Source: Blastopirellula sp. J2-11
GTDB lineage: Bacteria; Planctomycetota; Planctomycetia; Pirellulales; Pirellulaceae
Reading direction: 5' to 3'
NCBI RefSeq assembly: GCF_024584705.1
Contig: NZ_CP097384.1
Coordinates: forward strand, 4,774,001-4,838,000
Length of the DNA: 64,000 bases
The notes under the pieces are model-generated. The model had not been told where the DNA came from and searched no databases. It saw nothing but the letters and a program-made list of their open reading frames with translations. A program made the position numbers and the translations under genes. Every line of letters starts with the position of its first letter. Within the stretch, counting starts at the first letter, position 1. Shown piece by piece: positions 1 to 48,592 of this stretch.

Positions 1-1134
1 GGCGTCGGCGAATTCTTTGAAGTGACCCGGCGAACGCGGAATCGTTTTTTCCGGCCCCTCGTAATCCTTGTACTGAGCTTCCGGCAGCAATTGGAAGATG
101 GCGCCATAATCGTTGGACGAATAGATACGCCCTTTGTCGCCGATCAGCAAGCAACCGCTGTTGGCGACTTTGCCCTCGCCATCGCGCGGCACGCCGTCCA
201 ACAGTTCATTGTCAGGCATCTTACCGCCGTCGTACCAGAACAACTGGCAAGCCGGACGACCGTTCAGTTCCGGGAACTCGAAGGTGATCGTCGACCATTT
301 TGGGTAGGTGATGCCGTTGTGGCCCGAGGTGACCGCTTCGACCGAAGTGGGATCACGCAGCTTCAAAGCCATGTACGGCATGTTGACCGTATGGCAAGCC
401 ATGTCGCCCAAGGCGCCGGTGCCGAATTCCCAGAAACCGCGCCATTTGAATGGGTGGATGTCGGGACGATAGTCGATCGCTTTGGCCGGACCAATGAAGT
501 TGTCCCAGTGGATATTCTCTGGTGTCGGCTCTACTTCAGCGTAACCTTGACCTTGCGGCCAAATCGGGCGATTGGTCCAAACGTGGACCGCCTGCACGTT
601 GCCGATCGCGCCCGACTGAATGACCTCGGCGGCGCGACGCAGGCCGGAGTGCGAAGTTCCCTGATTACCCATTTGGGTCATCACTTTGTTTTCGCGAGCG
701 ATTTCGCCCAAACGACGCGCTTCGTAGATGCTGTGGGTCAGCGGCTTTTGCGTAAAGCAGTGCTTGCCCGCTTTCATTGCGGTAGCCGAGACGACTGCAT
801 GGCAATGATCAGGCGTGCTGACCGTCACCGCGTCAATCTCTTTGTCCATCTCGTCGAGCATCTTGCGATAGTCGTTGTACTTCTTGGCGCCTTCGAAATC
901 AGCGGCGGCTTTGTTCAGGTTGTTGTCGTCAATATCGCAGATCGCGACGATGTTGCCGGCACGGCTCGCATCGCGTGAATCGCTCGAACCTTTGCCCTGC
1001 ACGCCGATGCAAGCGAAGTTGATTTGTTCATTCGGCGATTTCGATTCCGCCGCTTGCATATTGGACGCCCAAAAGCCGACGCCCGCAGCCGCCGAAACTT
1101 TCAGAAAATCACGACGGTTATTATTCATTGTCAT
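1..1134 (-). CDS. Gfo/Idh/MocA-family oxidoreductase, Tat-exported (3' end outside window)
   Basis: Partial gene running off the left edge; 378 codons are visible and open. The start ATG at 1134 is preceded by TTAGGAG about nine bases away; a second in-frame ATG lies at 1128. The N-terminus has a twin-arginine signal ([18 protein letters not shown]), as in many planctomycetal secreted oxidoreductases. A Rossmann-type segment follows ([19 protein letters not shown], then [10 protein letters not shown]), then the family hallmark TQKPLTHS, equivalent to the EKP loop. Family members are NAD(P)-dependent sugar or inositol dehydrogenases; the substrate cannot be read here. The [15 protein letters not shown] region fits the periplasmic planctomycetal subgroup. 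It is separated by about 310 bases from mnmE, so probably a separate transcript. Confidence 0.9.
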
Positions 1135-42002: not shown

Positions 42003-45000
42003 TTACTTCTTCTGGAGCTTGACCAAGGCCGCTTCGACCGATTGGAGCTCGCGCTGGGCGTTCTCCAAGCCTTCGCGTTCCTTGGCGACCACGTCGGCCG
42101 GCGCTCGTTCGACAAAGCTGGCGTTGGACAGTTTCTTCTCTTTACCGGTGATCATTCCCATCAAACGCTCACGCTGCTTCTCGTTGCGCTCGATTTCGGC
42201 GTCGATGTCGATAAAGTCTTTCAGGTCGACATAGACTTCCATGCCGGGCAAATCGATTCGAGCGTTGGTTTCGGGAATGGTCACCTGCTCGCCCCAACCG
42301 ACGCTGCGCGCATTGGCCATCGAGGTGAAGTAGGCCTCCATCGACTCCAGCAATTCGACCGTCGGCGCGTCACAGCGGATGACAAACTCGATCATCTCGC
42401 GGGGCGCGATATTTTGGCGACTGCGAATCTCACGCAGACTGGCCAACGTCTCTTGGAACTTGGCGAACTGCGCTTCGATCTTGGCGTCTTGCCAGGCGGG
42501 GTCGATCTTCGGCCACTCGGCGATCATGATGCTGTCGGTCACTTCCGTCACTTCGGCCAAACCGCGGCGCGGCGCCAGTTGGCCAAGCGACTGCCAAATC
42601 TCTTCGGTGATGAACGGAATCAGCGGATGAAGCATTCGCAGCAGCGAATCTAAGACAAAGGTAATCACGCGCTGCGCCAGCGGACGCGAAGATTCGTCGG
42701 TGAAGCGTTCCTTCGTCATCTCAAGATAGAAGCTGCAGAAGTTGTCCCACGCGAAGTCGTACAACGCACGAGCCGCGTCGGCATAGCGATACGTCTCTAG
42801 GCAACGCGTCATCTCCGCTTCGGCCGAAGCCAGACGACTGAGAATCCAACGATCTTCTAGTTGCAAGTCAGCGTCCTTGACCGGCGCCGGCTCAAACCCT
42901 TCGAGATTGATCATCGTGAACCGAGCGGCGTTCCACAACTTGTTGCAGAAGTTGCGGCCGATCTCGAACCGCTCGCTGACCACGGCGCCGCGCGGCAAAG
43001 CCTGATCGGCTTCGCTTTGCGCCCATTGCGTAGAGAAGACGCCTGAGCACTTTTTGCACGTAATCGTGGGCTGCACGCGGTTCTTCTTGGTCTGATCAAT
43101 CAGCGCCTCGCAGTGCGGACATTCAAACTGCACCGGCATCCGCACGTCTTGCGTTTCGGTCGTCAGATAGGCGAGTCCGAAGCGGAGCGAGTCGGCGCCA
43201 AATTTCTCGATCACGTCCAGCGGATCGACGCCGTTCCCCTTTGACTTCGACATGCGCTCGCCGGTCCCATCCAAGATGGTCGGGTGAATGAAGACTTCCT
43301 GGAACGGGATCTCGCCCATGTTGTTCAAACCGGCCAGCACCATGCGGGCGACCCACAACGTGATGATATCGCGACTGGTGATCAACGTGCTGGTCGGATA
43401 GAAGTACTCCAGCTCCGGCGTTTGCTGGGGCCAACCCAACGTCGAGTGGGGCCACAAGGCCGAACTGAACCACGTATCGAGCACGTCTTCTTCGCGCACG
43501 AACCCCAGCTGCTCGTACTTCGCAGCCAGCGCGTCGTCATCTTCGTTGATGCAGACGTGAATCATTGAGTAAGGCATCCCCACGCGCGCAGCGCCTTGGA
43601 TGACGCCGGTCTTTTCGGCCGCTTGACGCTCCACATCGCGTTCGATTTGGTACGAAGCGCGGCCCGCTGCGATCTCGGGATCGGCGTCCAGCGTCGCGAT
43701 CAGCTTGTCATGATCTTCCTGCAGCTGACAGGTTTGCGACCAGATCGGAATCTGATGTCCCCACCACAGCTGTCGGCTGACGGGCCAGTCCCGCTTTTCG
43801 CTGAGCCAGTCGACGTATCCCTTGGCGTATCGAGTCGGGAAGATTTTCACGCGCCCGTCGGTGACCGCGTCCATGGCGCTTTGCGCCAGGTCATCCATGC
43901 GAATGAACCATTGATCGGCCAAGTACGGTTCGATCGGCGTCTTGCTGCGGTCGGAATGGGCCAGATCGATCTCGCGATCTTCCACTTTGTCGAGCAGCCC
44001 AATCGCGTCGAGATCGGCCACCACACGATCGCGGGCGTCATAGATCTTCAAACCTTTGTACTGCGCCGCGTTCTCGTTGAGCGTCCCGTCCGGATTCAAG
44101 ATATTGATCATCGGCAGTTCGTTCCGCACGCCCACTTCGTAGTCGTTCGGGTCATGGGCCGGCGTGATCTTCACGCAACCAGATCCCATTTCGGGCTTGG
44201 CCCACTCGTCGGCGATAAGCGGAATTTCGCGTTCGATCAGCGGGAGCATCAGCTTGCGACCGGCCACCGCCATGTCGCGCAGCACGATCAATTGCGACAA
44301 CATCGTCCGGCGACGTTCAATCAGCTGATCGAGTTCGGCCTGGATCTCGGCTTTCTCTTTGCCGGGAGCGGTCTTCAGCTTCTCTTGGAGCTCTGTCTCC
44401 AACTCGTCCAGCGCACGCTTCGGATCGGGATGCACGGCCACCGCCGTATCGCCCAACATCGTTTCGGGACGCGTGGTCGCGATCGTCACCACCGGCGGTT
44501 CGCCGGGCTGCGGATCAATCACCGGATAGCTGAAGTGCCAGAAGTGACCTTGGGTCGTTTCATGTGAGACCTCATCGTCGCTCACCGCGGTCTGCAGGAA
44601 CGTATCCCAGTTGACCAGGCGTTTGCCTTTGTAGATCAGATTCTTCGAGAAGAGGTCAAAGAAGGTGCTGCGCACGGCTCGAGCGCACATCGGATCAAGC
44701 GTAAATCGCGTCCGTTCCCAATCGCAGCTGCTCCCCATCCGCTTCAACTGACCCAAGATGCGGGTCTCGTACTGATCTTTCCACTTCCAGATCCGCTCGA
44801 CCATTTGCTCGCGGCCGAGATCATGGCGCGAGAGCCCTTCTTCTTCCAAGATCCGGCGTTCGACCACCGCTTGGGTCGCGATGCCTGCGTGATCGGTGCC
44901 TGGCACCCAGAGCGCCTCAAACCCCTTCATCCGCTTGTAACGGATCAGCACGTCTTGCAACGTGTTGTTGAGCGCGTGTCCTAAATGAAGCGCCCCAGTC

Positions 45001-45176
45001 ACGTTAGGCGGCGGAATCACGATCGTGTAGGGAGGCTTGTCGGGATTCACCTCGGCGTGGAAGTAGCCCCGCTCTTCCCACATCGGGTAGATACGTTGCT
45101 GAGCGGCCACAAAATCGAATCGATTCGGGAGATCTTTCGGATTGAAAGTCACTGCTTCCACTTTCTTTGGTCTCAA
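42003..45176 (-). CDS. valS: Valyl-tRNA synthetase with extra insertions
   Basis: 1057 residues from TTG 45176; GTG at 45152 (giving an N-terminus TFNPKDLPNRF) is an equally possible start. Class I motifs HLGH (residues 64-67) in PPPNVTGALHLGHALN and ERMSKSKGNGVDP, editing-domain TTRPETMLGDTAV, anticodon-binding part, and a C-terminal coiled-coil arm (ending LQSVEAALVKLQKK). Two additions: a charged helix in the editing domain (about 43% along, starting KRALDELETELQEKLK) and a zinc ribbon after KMSKS (CPHC...CKKC). It charges tRNA-Val. It begins 28 bases after cimA, within the attenuated operon. Confidence 0.96.
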   Translation of the reverse strand: MRPKKVEAVTFNPKDLPNRFDFVAAQQRIYPMWEERGYFHAEVNPDKPPYTIVIPPPNVTGALHLGHALNNTLQDVLIRYKRMKGFEALWVPGTDHAGIATQAVVERRILEEEGLSRHDLGREQMVERIWKWKDQYETRILGQLKRMGSSCDWERTRFTLDPMCARAVRSTFFDLFSKNLIYKGKRLVNWDTFLQTAVSDDEVSHETTQGHFWHFSYPVIDPQPGEPPVVTIATTRPETMLGDTAVAVHPDPKRALDELETELQEKLKTAPGKEKAEIQAELDQLIERRRTMLSQLIVLRDMAVAGRKLMLPLIEREIPLIADEWAKPEMGSGCVKITPAHDPNDYEVGVRNELPMINILNPDGTLNENAAQYKGLKIYDARDRVVADLDAIGLLDKVEDREIDLAHSDRSKTPIEPYLADQWFIRMDDLAQSAMDAVTDGRVKIFPTRYAKGYVDWLSEKRDWPVSRQLWWGHQIPIWSQTCQLQEDHDKLIATLDADPEIAAGRASYQIERDVERQAAEKTGVIQGAARVGMPYSMIHVCINEDDDALAAKYEQLGFVREEDVLDTWFSSALWPHSTLGWPQQTPELEYFYPTSTLITSRDIITLWVARMVLAGLNNMGEIPFQEVFIHPTILDGTGERMSKSKGNGVDPLDVIEKFGADSLRFGLAYLTTETQDVRMPVQFECPHCEALIDQTKKNRVQPTITCKKCSGVFSTQWAQSEADQALPRGAVVSERFEIGRNFCNKLWNAARFTMINLEGFEPAPVKDADLQLEDRWILSRLASAEAEMTRCLETYRYADAARALYDFAWDNFCSFYLEMTKERFTDESSRPLAQRVITFVLDSLLRMLHPLIPFITEEIWQSLGQLAPRRGLAEVTEVTDSIMIAEWPKIDPAWQDAKIEAQFAKFQETLASLREIRSRQNIAPREMIEFVIRCDAPTVELLESMEAYFTSMANARSVGWGEQVTIPETNARIDLPGMEVYVDLKDFIDIDAEIERNEKQRERLMGMITGKEKKLSNASFVERAPADVVAKEREGLENAQRELQSVEAALVKLQKK

Positions 45177-45204: not shown

Positions 45205-46833
45205 TTATTTCGCCGCGGTTGACTGGGCGCTGGCCCGCGCCGGCAACTTGCCCCGTTGCTCGTCTTTGTAAAGTTTGTACTCAATCGCATCGACCAGCGC
45301 GTTCCAGCTGGCCTGGATGATATTCTCGCTTACGCCGATCGTGCCCCAAACGTCGTTCTCGTCGGCGCTTTCGATCGTCACGCGAATCCGCGCGGCGGTG
45401 CCGGCCTCTTGATTGACGACACGCACCTTGTAGTCGACCAGATGCATTTCTTCGAGCGTCGGAAAGCAACCGTTCAGCGACTTTCGCAGCGCCACATCGA
45501 GCGCCTGCACCGGGCCATCTCCTTCGCCCACTTCGTACCGAATCTCGCCGTCGACCGAAACTTTGACGGTCGCTTCGGTCACCAGGTCGACCATCTGATG
45601 CTCGACTAGATCTTCCACTTCGACGTGATATTTGAGGATCTCAAAGTGAGGCAGGAAGACGCCGGCGACCCGTTTGACCAATAGATCAAACGACGCTTCG
45701 GCCGCTTCAAACTGAAAGCCTTGGTTCTCTTTGGCGACGACTTCGGCCAGGATTTTATCCATCAACTCGCGATCGTCCTGCAGATTGTGCTTGGTCGTCA
45801 ACGCGACGATGTTGGATCGGCCTGACAATTCGCTCACCAACACGCGACGTTCGTTGCCGACGCTCTGCGGATCGATATGCTCGTAACTAGACGCGGCGCG
45901 ATTGATCGCGTGGACATGCATGCCCCCCTTATGAGCGAATGCGCTTTGTCCGACGAATGGTTGATTGTTGCGACGGTTGACGTTGGCTGTGTCATAGACG
46001 AAACGGGATAGTTCGGTCAGATGCTGATAACCGGCGCCGCCGATCACTTCGTACCCTTTCCGCTTCAAGCCGAGATTGGCGATCACCGAAACCAAGTCGG
46101 CGTTGCCGCACCGTTCGCCAAAACCGTTGATGGTCCCTTGCACTTGAACGGCGCCGGCGTCGACCGCGGCCAGACTGTTGGCGACCGCCAAGTCGCCATC
46201 GTTGTGGGTATGAATGCCGACCGGCACATGGAACTCGGCCAGCGCTGCAATTGCTTTGCTTGCATACTCGGCGATCTCTTCCGGCAAACTGCCGCCGTTG
46301 GTGTCGCACATCACCACCATGCGGGCTCCCGCCTTCGCGGCGGCTCGAATCGTCTCGGCGGCGTACTCGGGATTCGCTTTCCAGCCGTCAAAGAAATGCT
46401 CGGCGTCGTAGATCACCTCACAACCTTCGCTGACGATATAGGCGACCGAGTCGGCGATCATCGCCAGATTCTCTTCCAGCGTCACGCGCAACACATCGGT
46501 CACATGAAAGTCATGCGTCTTGCCGACGATCGTCACCACCGGCGCACCGGAGTTGACCAGCGCCTGCATGCCGGGATCATCGGCGGCGTTAATCCCTTTG
46601 CGGCGCGTCATGCCGAAGGCGCAGACCTTGGCATGCTTCAGCTGCAAATCTTGGACGCGGCGGAAGTACTCGGCGTCTTTTTCATTCGACAGCGGGTATC
46701 CTCCCTCGATGAAATCGACGCCGATCTCGTCCAGACGCTGCGTAATCGACAGCTTGTCCTGCAAAGAAAAGCTGACGCCTTCTCCTTGGGCGCCATCGCG
46801 AAGCGTCGTGTCGTAGATCTCGATTTTTCTCAT
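45205..46833 (-). CDS. cimA: Citramalate synthase (isoleucine pathway entry)
   Basis: 542 residues from ATG 46833 (AGGGAC about nine bases upstream). HMGL-like TIM barrel: KIEIYDTTLRDGAQGEGVSF, GVDFIEGGYPLSN, MVVMCDTNGGSLPEEI, VGIHTHNDGDLAVANSLAAVDAGAVQVQGTINGFGERCGNADL. The C-terminal LeuA-type regulatory domain includes VRVVNQEAGTAARIRVTIES. The specific length and GEGVSFS motif indicate CimA rather than LeuA: acetyl-CoA plus pyruvate gives citramalate, feeding 2-oxobutyrate and isoleucine. It is first in the cimA-valS operon and lies behind an attenuator. Confidence 0.93.
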   Translation of the reverse strand: MRKIEIYDTTLRDGAQGEGVSFSLQDKLSITQRLDEIGVDFIEGGYPLSNEKDAEYFRRVQDLQLKHAKVCAFGMTRRKGINAADDPGMQALVNSGAPVVTIVGKTHDFHVTDVLRVTLEENLAMIADSVAYIVSEGCEVIYDAEHFFDGWKANPEYAAETIRAAAKAGARMVVMCDTNGGSLPEEIAEYASKAIAALAEFHVPVGIHTHNDGDLAVANSLAAVDAGAVQVQGTINGFGERCGNADLVSVIANLGLKRKGYEVIGGAGYQHLTELSRFVYDTANVNRRNNQPFVGQSAFAHKGGMHVHAINRAASSYEHIDPQSVGNERRVLVSELSGRSNIVALTTKHNLQDDRELMDKILAEVVAKENQGFQFEAAEASFDLLVKRVAGVFLPHFEILKYHVEVEDLVEHQMVDLVTEATVKVSVDGEIRYEVGEGDGPVQALDVALRKSLNGCFPTLEEMHLVDYKVRVVNQEAGTAARIRVTIESADENDVWGTIGVSENIIQASWNALVDAIEYKLYKDEQRGKLPARASAQSTAAK

Positions 46834-46898
46834 GAAGAAAGTCCCTGCTGGCGGGGCAGGCCGCTTGGGTTTCTGCGTTTGGCAATGAAAACAAAAAA

Positions 46899-46928
46899 AG
46901 CTCTGAAACCGCAAAGGGCTTCAGAGCT
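46899..46928 (-). terminator. Attenuator terminator ahead of cimA
   Basis: On the minus strand AGCTCTGAA and TTCAGAGCT form a nine-base-pair stem (46928-46920 with 46907-46899) with an 11-12-base loop, followed by seven T residues and GTTTTC. Only 57-60 bases separate the T-run from the cimA ATG, so transcription ending here would prevent cimA-valS expression. This is an intrinsic terminator in a leader, not an end-of-gene terminator. Confidence 0.85.
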
Positions 46929-46974
46929 GTTGGATTCCGGTGATTCGCCGTTCCTCTAGCCAAGCCCACAGCGG
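46909..46974 (-). promoter_or_regulatory. Candidate antiterminator pairing
   Basis: In the leader RNA, CCGC...GGGCUU (46974-46962, overlapping the last leader-peptide codons) is complementary to AAGCCC...GCGG (46921-46909, the apical part of the terminator): ten base pairs around a three-by-three internal loop. A ribosome stalled at the Ile/Val codons would leave the first segment free; one reaching the stop codon would cover it. Pairing is by inspection only. Confidence 0.5.
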
Positions 46975-47045
46975 CCCGGTACTACGATGCGTACGATCGT
47001 AATCGGTCCCTTCTGCGAGCCTACGTTGATCAGCGTGTTGGGCAT
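46956..47045 (-). CDS. Ile/Val leader peptide of the cimA-valS attenuator
   Basis: 29 codons, ATG 47045 to TAG 46956, with a good ribosome-binding sequence (GGGTGCAGGGAA directly upstream). The peptide begins MPNTLINVG and carries the control run ITIVRIVVP at residues 15-23. All four valine codons (positions 8, 18, 21, 22) are GTA, a codon used sparingly by neighbouring genes. Such short Ile/Val-rich peptides upstream of a terminator are the hallmark of ilv-type transcription attenuation. Too short for standard gene prediction. Confidence 0.8.
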   Translation of the reverse strand: MPNTLINVGSQKGPITIVRIVVPGRCGLG

Positions 47046-47103
47046 TTCCCTGCACCCTTTTCAGGCTAGTGGCCGGTTTCTGCAACCTGCGTGTGAAGAC
47101 GTA

Positions 47104-47132
47104 AGTCTAAAATTACCAGTATTCTATGTCAA
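47104..47132 (-). promoter_or_regulatory. Sigma70 promoter of the cimA-valS leader
   Basis: On the minus strand: TTGACA (47132-47127), 17-base spacer, TAGACT (47109-47104). A perfect -35 and a four-of-six -10 at ideal spacing. The predicted start is near 47097, about 50 bases before the leader-peptide ATG and about 265 before cimA. Confidence 0.75.
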
Positions 47133-47713: not shown

Positions 47714-48592
47714 ATGTCCGGATATTTCCGTAGACAGAGCGGCTTTACTTTGGTCGAGCTGCTGGTCGTCATCGCTATCATCGGCGTGTTGATCGCCCTA
47801 TTGTTGCCTGCGGTGCAACAAGCGCGTGAAGCGGCTCGCCGTATGGCTTGCTCGAACAATTTAAAACAGCTTGGCCTGGCGCTGCACAACTATCACGATA
47901 CGCACCGCAACTTCCCGCTGGGCTGCCAAGGAAACTCGGAACGGACAGGCCTGCACGTGGCGTTACTGCCGTTCATTGAGCAGAACAACCTCTATGACCA
48001 GATGGATACGAAGATCAACTACGGCTCGGGAGTGAACGCGGTCGCCTTAAGAACGCGGATCGATGGATATCTCTGTCCGAGCGGTAATGAGCCGATGGGC
48101 GACGACAACGACGAGTATTTCACCACGCATTATTACGGCGTGTTGGGAGCGAAGGGGACCAATCCATCGACCGGCAATTCCTATGAATTTGACGCCGGCT
48201 CCGACACCGCCTACGGCGGCTTCTCTAAAGTAGGAATTTTTTACCAAGGCGAATCCCGCGGCATGCACGACATCCTTGACGGCACCAGCAATACGTTGGC
48301 TTTCGGCGAAATCTCGTGGAGCGATCGCAACGGCAAGGAAACGCGCTATCGCCCCTGGTCGCGCGGCGGACGCGTCGGTTATTTCTCGGTGGGGGCCAAA
48401 AATGTAAACGATGCGATTAACTCGGACCAAACAGGCCGCTTTAACGACATGTCTTTCGGCAGCAGTCACCCCGGCGGAGCGATGTTCACCTTGGGAGACG
48501 CGTCAGTTCGTTTCCTGGCGGAAACAATCGATCACGACACCTATCTGGCGGCGGCCAGTTGCAAAGGGGGCGAATCGCTGCCGCTCGACTAA
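47714..48592 (+). CDS. DUF1559 prepilin-like protein (copy 3)
   Basis: 292 residues; ATG 47714 with GAGG seven bases upstream. Prepilin N-terminus QSGFTLVELLVVIAIIGVLI, then LLPAVQQAREAARRMACSNNLKQLGLALHNYHDTHRNFPLG, a mid-region LDGTSNTLAFGEI and C-terminal SSHPGGAMFTLGDASVRFLAETID. Predicted pseudopilin-like secreted protein. Its lipoprotein partner follows 51 bases downstream on the same strand, ending in a strong terminator. Confidence 0.92.
   Translation: MSGYFRRQSGFTLVELLVVIAIIGVLIALLLPAVQQAREAARRMACSNNLKQLGLALHNYHDTHRNFPLGCQGNSERTGLHVALLPFIEQNNLYDQMDTKINYGSGVNAVALRTRIDGYLCPSGNEPMGDDNDEYFTTHYYGVLGAKGTNPSTGNSYEFDAGSDTAYGGFSKVGIFYQGESRGMHDILDGTSNTLAFGEISWSDRNGKETRYRPWSRGGRVGYFSVGAKNVNDAINSDQTGRFNDMSFGSSHPGGAMFTLGDASVRFLAETIDHDTYLAAASCKGGESLPLD

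Follow-up and report, generated by a model that had tools for sequence, protein, structure and literature searches.

The window is a stretch of 64,000 nucleotides (nt) of Blastopirellula sp. J2-11 (family Pirellulaceae, class Planctomycetia; contig NZ_CP097384.1, positions 4,774,001 to 4,838,000), and the element described here is a putative transcription attenuator on its minus strand, upstream of cimA. The citramalate synthase gene cimA lies at 45205..46833 (TIGR00977, 662 bits, cut-off 450). It is followed on the same strand by valS, encoding valyl-tRNA synthetase, at 42003..45176 (TIGR00422, 924 bits, cut-off 612); the gap is 28 bases, provided that the valS start TTG at 45176 is used. These matches bear out an earlier note on this DNA, which had placed the cimA start at 46833 and valS 28 bases further on. 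The genome, a single contig of 6.43 Mb, contains one CimA and one LeuA, a distant homologue. The nearest long upstream open reading frame (ORF) that reads as a gene, 47714-48592, is on the plus strand and divergent from the leader; its N-terminal stretch is presumably of the prepilin type.

All features of the leader region are on the minus strand. The sequence contains a sigma-70-type promoter, TTGACA-17-TAGACT (47104..47132), a probable ribosome-binding site, AAAGGG (47055..47060, 9 nt from the ATG), and a leader ORF of 29 codons, MPNTLINVGSQKGPITIVRIVVPGRCGLG (46956..47045; ATG at 47045, stop TAG 46958-46956). The regulatory codons, ITIVRIVV, are codons 15-22 (46980..47003), and the four Val codons of the leader (8, 18, 21 and 22) are all GTA. 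All of these stand where the earlier note had read them. Segment 1, CCGGGCC (46973..46979), pairs in the computed folds with segment 2 if free of the ribosome. Segment 2, GGGCTTGGCT (46958..46967), is the predicted antiterminator strand and runs into the leader stop codon. Segment 3, AGCTCTGAAGCCC (46916..46928), supported by folds and covariation, is common to the antiterminator and the terminator. The note's segment complementary to the hairpin apex was confirmed as GGGCTT (46967-46962) pairing with AAGCCC (46921-46916), and a second block, GGCT:AGCT, extends it to ten pairs with a bulge. Segments 3 and 4 form an intrinsic terminator hairpin (46899..46928), supported by sequence and covariation, followed by a run of seven T (46893..46899) that ends at 46893. 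The seven T of the note stood; its nine-pair stem did not, as the nine outer pairs become 12 when one G-T and two G-C inner pairs are included. The leader stop lies 122 nt before the cimA start. The RNA of 47080-46880 (201 nt) folds more stably than its shuffles (z -3.2). Within the 1-kb region, promoter-like matches (1 vs 0.9 in shuffles) and terminator-like matches (2 vs 1.5) are singly not rare; their combination and conservation exceed chance.

A search for CimA at E <= 1e-150 gave matches in 180 of 241 genomes of the window's family. From 169 assembled loci with a cimA start, the analysis used the 158 that were unique and had 300 nt or more upstream; individual loci are cited by L numbers. 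A set of 59 regions was hand-chosen for spread over genera and is not random. Loci from named organisms include those of Thalassoglobus neptunius (L051), Rhodopirellula maiorica (L054), Stieleria sedimenti (L073) and an uncultured Schlesneria (L069). Computation established the anatomy and conservation of the leader, its amino-acid specificity by gene, covariation in the stems, and where the antiterminator strand lies with respect to the stop codon and the stall sites. A strong terminator within 300 nt of cimA was detected in 121 of the 158 loci; one appeared in 1.1% of 1580 shuffles and, among control ORFs taken from these loci, in 5 of 415. Under a strict rule, which requires a terminator and at least four Ile or Val in eight codons, leader and terminator were recognised together in 96 of 158 loci. 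Of these loci, 92 could be scored for the promoter pattern TTGAC-15..19-TANNNT, the other four having under 80 nt, and 84 carried it no more than 150 nt ahead of the leader (0.3% of shuffles). Among control ORFs, 5 of 430 had the pattern within 200 nt, and among the 62 loci without a recognised leader it was found within 450 nt of cimA in 31. The window promoter is present in three of four genus sequences; the aligned piece of L003 begins past the -35 box.

In 70 of the 96 loci, 20-38 nt separate the end of the leader ORF from the detected terminator (24 nt in L001); in 11, the terminator lies at least 70 nt past the leader. Covariation was scored on 22 loci hand-picked from 70 alignable ones, and the counts are illustrative. 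Five terminator pairs changed on both sides, a value reached by one of 500 shuffles. In the four genus members the terminator arm AGCTCTGAA is replaced by AGCCCTGAA, with the partner arm changed to match. A longer spacer of 70-87 nt, compared with the usual ~28, was observed in L054, L057, L073, L149, L157, L158, L164, L165 and L170, several of which are Rhodopirellula or Stieleria. These loci keep the antiterminator strand at the leader stop codon; in L057 it follows directly after.

The amino acids of the leader were identified by a blind test of all 20 residues on the 122 loci with a terminator in a 450-nt stretch, using the densest eight-codon stretch per amino acid in small ORFs immediately upstream of the terminator. 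The two highest scores were those of Ile (z 24.0) and Val (z 13.2), with Ser next (4.8); Leu enrichment before cimA was weak (z 3.8). At least five Ile or Val in eight codons were found in 61% of the 122 loci and in 1.1% of shuffles. The four genus members have the same peptide core, GPITIVRIVVPGRCGLG. The leaders also differ from the genes in codon choice: ATT accounts for 69% of Ile codons in the 96 leaders and 24% in cimA, and GTA for 20% of Val codons in leaders and 5% in cimA. Three genes of the window use GTA for 4 of 200 Val codons. This preference might reflect the sensitivity of isoacceptors to starvation or the avoidance of base pairing.

The gene leuA provides a comparison within the window's family and order. 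The set contains 39 loci, with 25 further search rows without a locus, and a terminator was detected in 30 of the 39. In these 30 loci the blind test selected Leu (z 18.6), followed by Thr (2.8); Val scored 1.2. At least four Leu in eight codons were present in 29 of 30, compared with 4.5% of shuffles. The leuA leaders are of the MPCISLLPLLLLTGHRPQGTA type in genus members, and relatives have, for example, MFTPALLLLLLSLLALGS. The leader residue thus tracks the gene behind it, since leuA leaders carry Leu and cimA leaders Ile and Val. No leader-plus-terminator was recognised among relatives at ilvB (13 loci; a hairpin alone in 4, all of them genus members, three read by eye), at trpE (13 loci; the terminator scan was positive in 1) or at ileS (11 loci, one of them, L254, wrongly positioned; no hairpin).

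On sequence evidence, the putative attenuator is widespread in the window's class, Planctomycetia. In an even draw of 119 genomes from the phylum, CimA was matched at E <= 1e-100 in 41, and 38 of the matches were examined; the three left out were the window's own genome, a partial match and a genus member that had been used before, and L280 has only 45 nt upstream. Leader and terminator were found in 5 of 5 loci of the same class. An extension to the whole phylum was mostly rejected, with 4 of 33 loci of other classes counted (L261, L263, L269 and L277); L268 and L291, each having a hairpin with a distant Ile/Val ORF, were not counted. In the family of L107, Gemmataceae by the title of its genome, 29 loci from 54 genomes with a match contained 24 terminators, 21 leaders with at least four Ile or Val in eight codons and 14 promoter patterns.

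An additional hairpin was observed in cimA leaders in or near the family of L107. It is nearly invariant, lies in frame directly after the Ile/Val codons, and has the sequence GCGCAGGGAGTGCGC (AQGVR) with a GGGAG loop. It occurs in L081, L110, L319, L324-L326, L328, L330, L331, L333-L336, L339, L342, L343, L346, L348 and L350; three of these loci, L324-L326, carry a compensatory variant. Overall it was found in 19 of 222 cimA upstream regions, compared with 0.18% of shuffles. Its exact 15-mer is present in 10 of 41 genomes, in one copy each, in all 10 just upstream of cimA. The hairpin may be a pause hairpin or a protein site.

The case for an antiterminator in the window rests on strand position and cross-locus matching, not on duplex strength. 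The best partner strand of the 5' half of the terminator lies between -6 and +12 nt of the leader end in 92 of the 96 loci, compared with 33% of shuffles; in 76 of the 96 it touches the stop codon, compared with 23%. An initial statement that the strand straddles the stop codon in 92 of 96 was too strong, as the recount gave 92 near it and 76 touching it. The stop region paired with the terminator arm of its own locus at a mean of -19.3 kcal/mol, compared with -15.4 (standard deviation 0.3) when arms were permuted among loci (2000 permutations). Antiterminator covariation in the 22 loci gave a score reached by 3 of 500 shuffles, with pair 24-76 appearing as UA, GC, CG and GU. A predicted antiterminator that shares the 5' arm of the terminator and excludes it was found across loci, its strength in the window alone being not above chance. 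The earlier note had predicted that relatives would show conserved peptide codons, a conserved terminator and covariation in both stems. The codons (the genus core and the blind choice of Ile and Val beyond the genus) and the terminator turned out as predicted; covariation is clear in the terminator and holds in the antiterminator on some measures only.

The position of the strand was related to the ribosome by a geometric model in which RNA is covered up to 15 nt past the first base of the A-site codon. Placed midway along the Ile/Val run, the ribosome covers a mean of 7% of the strand, and half or more of it in 6 of the 96 loci. At the stop codon it covers 92%, and half or more in 90 of 96; the pairing left over then weakens from -19.3 to -5.2 kcal/mol, a loss of 14.1 compared with 5.9 in shuffles. 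In this model a ribosome at the stop blocks the antiterminator strand, and a ribosome on the regulatory codons frees it. To mimic a ribosome in the Ile/Val run, the window RNA was ended at 46911 and its free part begun at 46985 or 46973; segments 2 and 3 then paired (-20.1 kcal/mol).

Several results weigh against an attenuator. The full-length window RNA keeps the terminator in its minimum-energy fold in all stall scenarios tried; the switch must therefore be kinetic, acting during transcription. The strength of the window antiterminator was rejected as proof by itself, 24 of 50 shuffles being as strong; the counterpart duplex of L003 ranks 20 of 50, and a pairing equalled by at most 1 of 50 shuffles was found in just 36 of the 96 loci. 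Antiterminator pairs changed on both sides (65/500) and further pair types (361/500) were unexceptional. A loss of at least 4 kcal/mol under the stop-codon ribosome occurs in 59% of shuffled regions too, compared with 90 of 96 real loci. Among variable leader columns in the four genus members, codon positions 1, 2 and 3 account for 0, 4 and 5, with no clear synonymous bias. The strict leader-plus-terminator rule fails in 62 of 158 loci, and a looser scan of these 62 recovered a T-hairpin in 40 and a leader in just 7. Outside the window's class no terminator was detected in 25 of 33 loci.

Taken together, the locus is very probably a ribosome-mediated transcription attenuator of the classical kind, which senses Ile and Val and controls cimA, in most cases together with valS. 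We infer promoter use, translation of the leader, termination and read-through, the response to starvation and the cotranscription of valS as parts of this mechanism. RNA polymerase would start just downstream of 47132-47104, and the leader peptide would be translated during RNA synthesis. With charged Ile- and Val-tRNA plentiful, the ribosome would reach the leader stop codon and cover segment 2, segments 3 and 4 would pair, and transcription would end near 46893. With Ile- or Val-tRNA short, the ribosome would stall in ITIVRIVV, covering segment 1 and leaving segment 2 free to capture segment 3 before segment 4 is made, and the polymerase would continue into cimA and valS. If the leader is not translated, segments 1 and 2 could pair and the terminator would form.

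Three other explanations were weighed. Terminators are common between genes, and the hairpin might be the ordinary terminator of an upstream gene, or an insulator, with the small ORF incidental. However, the nearest upstream gene-like ORF is divergent, and the conserved promoter sits between that ORF and the terminator. An ordinary terminator would also explain neither why Ile and Val are enriched nor why the antiterminator strand sits at the stop codon, and we regard this explanation as extremely unlikely. It is very unlikely that the leader acts instead on translation, by reinitiation or by unmasking a ribosome-binding site, or through Rho. The loci without a detected terminator and the 11 of 96 with at least 70 nt past the leader would fit such a mode of action, and leaders without obvious terminators are described for other genes in the portion of PMC1262725 available. 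Against it, T-run terminators are present in most of the loci (121/158) with an alternative strand matched to them, and the distance of 122 nt between leader stop and cimA in the window is unlike close reinitiation.

A tRNA- or metabolite-binding riboswitch, a T-box or an unknown aptamer that holds an ORF by chance, has a probability close to negligible. T-boxes control such genes elsewhere, and in one lineage the leader contains a conserved hairpin. However, Rfam models, including those for a T-box core, gave no match in the window at the gathering level and no relevant weak match near the site; the weak matches obtained (a microRNA and a snoRNA family) were taken as chance. The Ile/Val codons and the two switching stems recur across loci, other shared structure not having been searched for systematically.

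The mechanism is known; as far as the literature was searched, the target pair, cimA and valS, and the phylum are new for it. In Escherichia coli, the leaders of ilvGMEDA and ilvBN encode peptides rich in branched-chain residues, form alternative antiterminator and terminator structures, and permit read-through on stalling; in the pheST attenuator, an aminoacyl-tRNA synthetase is controlled by a leader peptide containing its cognate amino acid. The planctomycete element resembles ilvGMEDA and ilvBN in its branched-chain leader and in the layout of its alternative structures, but differs in its target, which is cimA of the citramalate route to isoleucine, often with valS, in its weak Leu signal and in the phylum.

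The accessible parts of two sources describe a Corynebacterium ilvB-II motif and ilvBNC upstream ORF (uORF), rich in branched-chain codons and with a terminator before a branched-chain operon (PMC10272879, PMC1262725). The likeness to these is a branched-chain-rich uORF and a terminator before a biosynthetic operon. The type of attenuator proposed in the earlier note agrees with the conserved anatomy, whereas the close likeness to actinobacterial ilv leaders that it drew proved loose. The actinobacterial ilvB leader ORFs are described, in the part of the source seen, as overlapping the terminator (PMC1262725). By that account, the planctomycete ORF differs in ending before the terminator, with its stop codon usually in or beside the antiterminator strand, and in having cimA as target. 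The same part reports Streptomyces leuS attenuators, in which a synthetase is under a leader of its own amino acid (PMC1262725). Compared with both pheST and leuS, the planctomycete valS shares its attenuator with a biosynthetic gene, which comes first. In the openly licensed PubMed Central literature, as far as its texts were available, no description was found of such an attenuator with a leader peptide for any planctomycete or for cimA or valS, which does not establish absence from print. Korolev et al. 2016 counted leader genes close to structural genes in Planctomycetes generally, according to the portion consulted (PMC4833913).

The proposed attenuator would imply coupling of transcription and translation, because the switch works only with a ribosome within tens of nucleotides of RNA polymerase. 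Spatial segregation of transcription and translation in Gemmata obscuriglobus has been claimed (Gottshall et al. 2014, as cited in the parts seen of PMC6212462 and PMC5394234). Against this claim, we consider it reasonably likely that the two processes are coupled at biosynthetic loci across the class, including the family of L107, and that the GGGAG-loop hairpin gained there may add a pause or a second sensor. If functional, the attenuator argues for coupling where segregation has been claimed, and the locus offers a place to test it. It would also add to the phylum a widespread amino-acid switch, acting on valyl-tRNA synthetase and on the enzyme that opens the citramalate route to isoleucine.

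The gene valS is a frequent passenger of the attenuator and not a universal one. It lies on the cimA strand within 600 nt in 104 of 158 loci, is located elsewhere on that strand in 10, was not found despite room in 35 and could not be resolved in 9. A role as necessary partner was rejected, as 18 of the 96 leader loci have room for valS but show none in the examined stretch.

The planctomycete leuA leaders resemble those of cimA in having a leader ORF and a terminator, and differ in carrying Leu instead of Ile and Val and, often, in having a further ORF with LLL downstream. In 14 of 30 loci (L197-L199, L202-L204, L207, L208, L294, L297, L298, L309, L314 and L317), and also in L206, a second small ORF with at least three Leu in five codons follows the terminator of the Leu leader and precedes leuA. 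Tandem leaders may control leuA, with the second one perhaps affecting translation. In several cases the second ORF continues with APAPGR-like codons that span a GCCGG...CCGGC repeat, as in L198 (MTSHFLPDASNFASRGRLLLAAPAPGRPVDSIHC).

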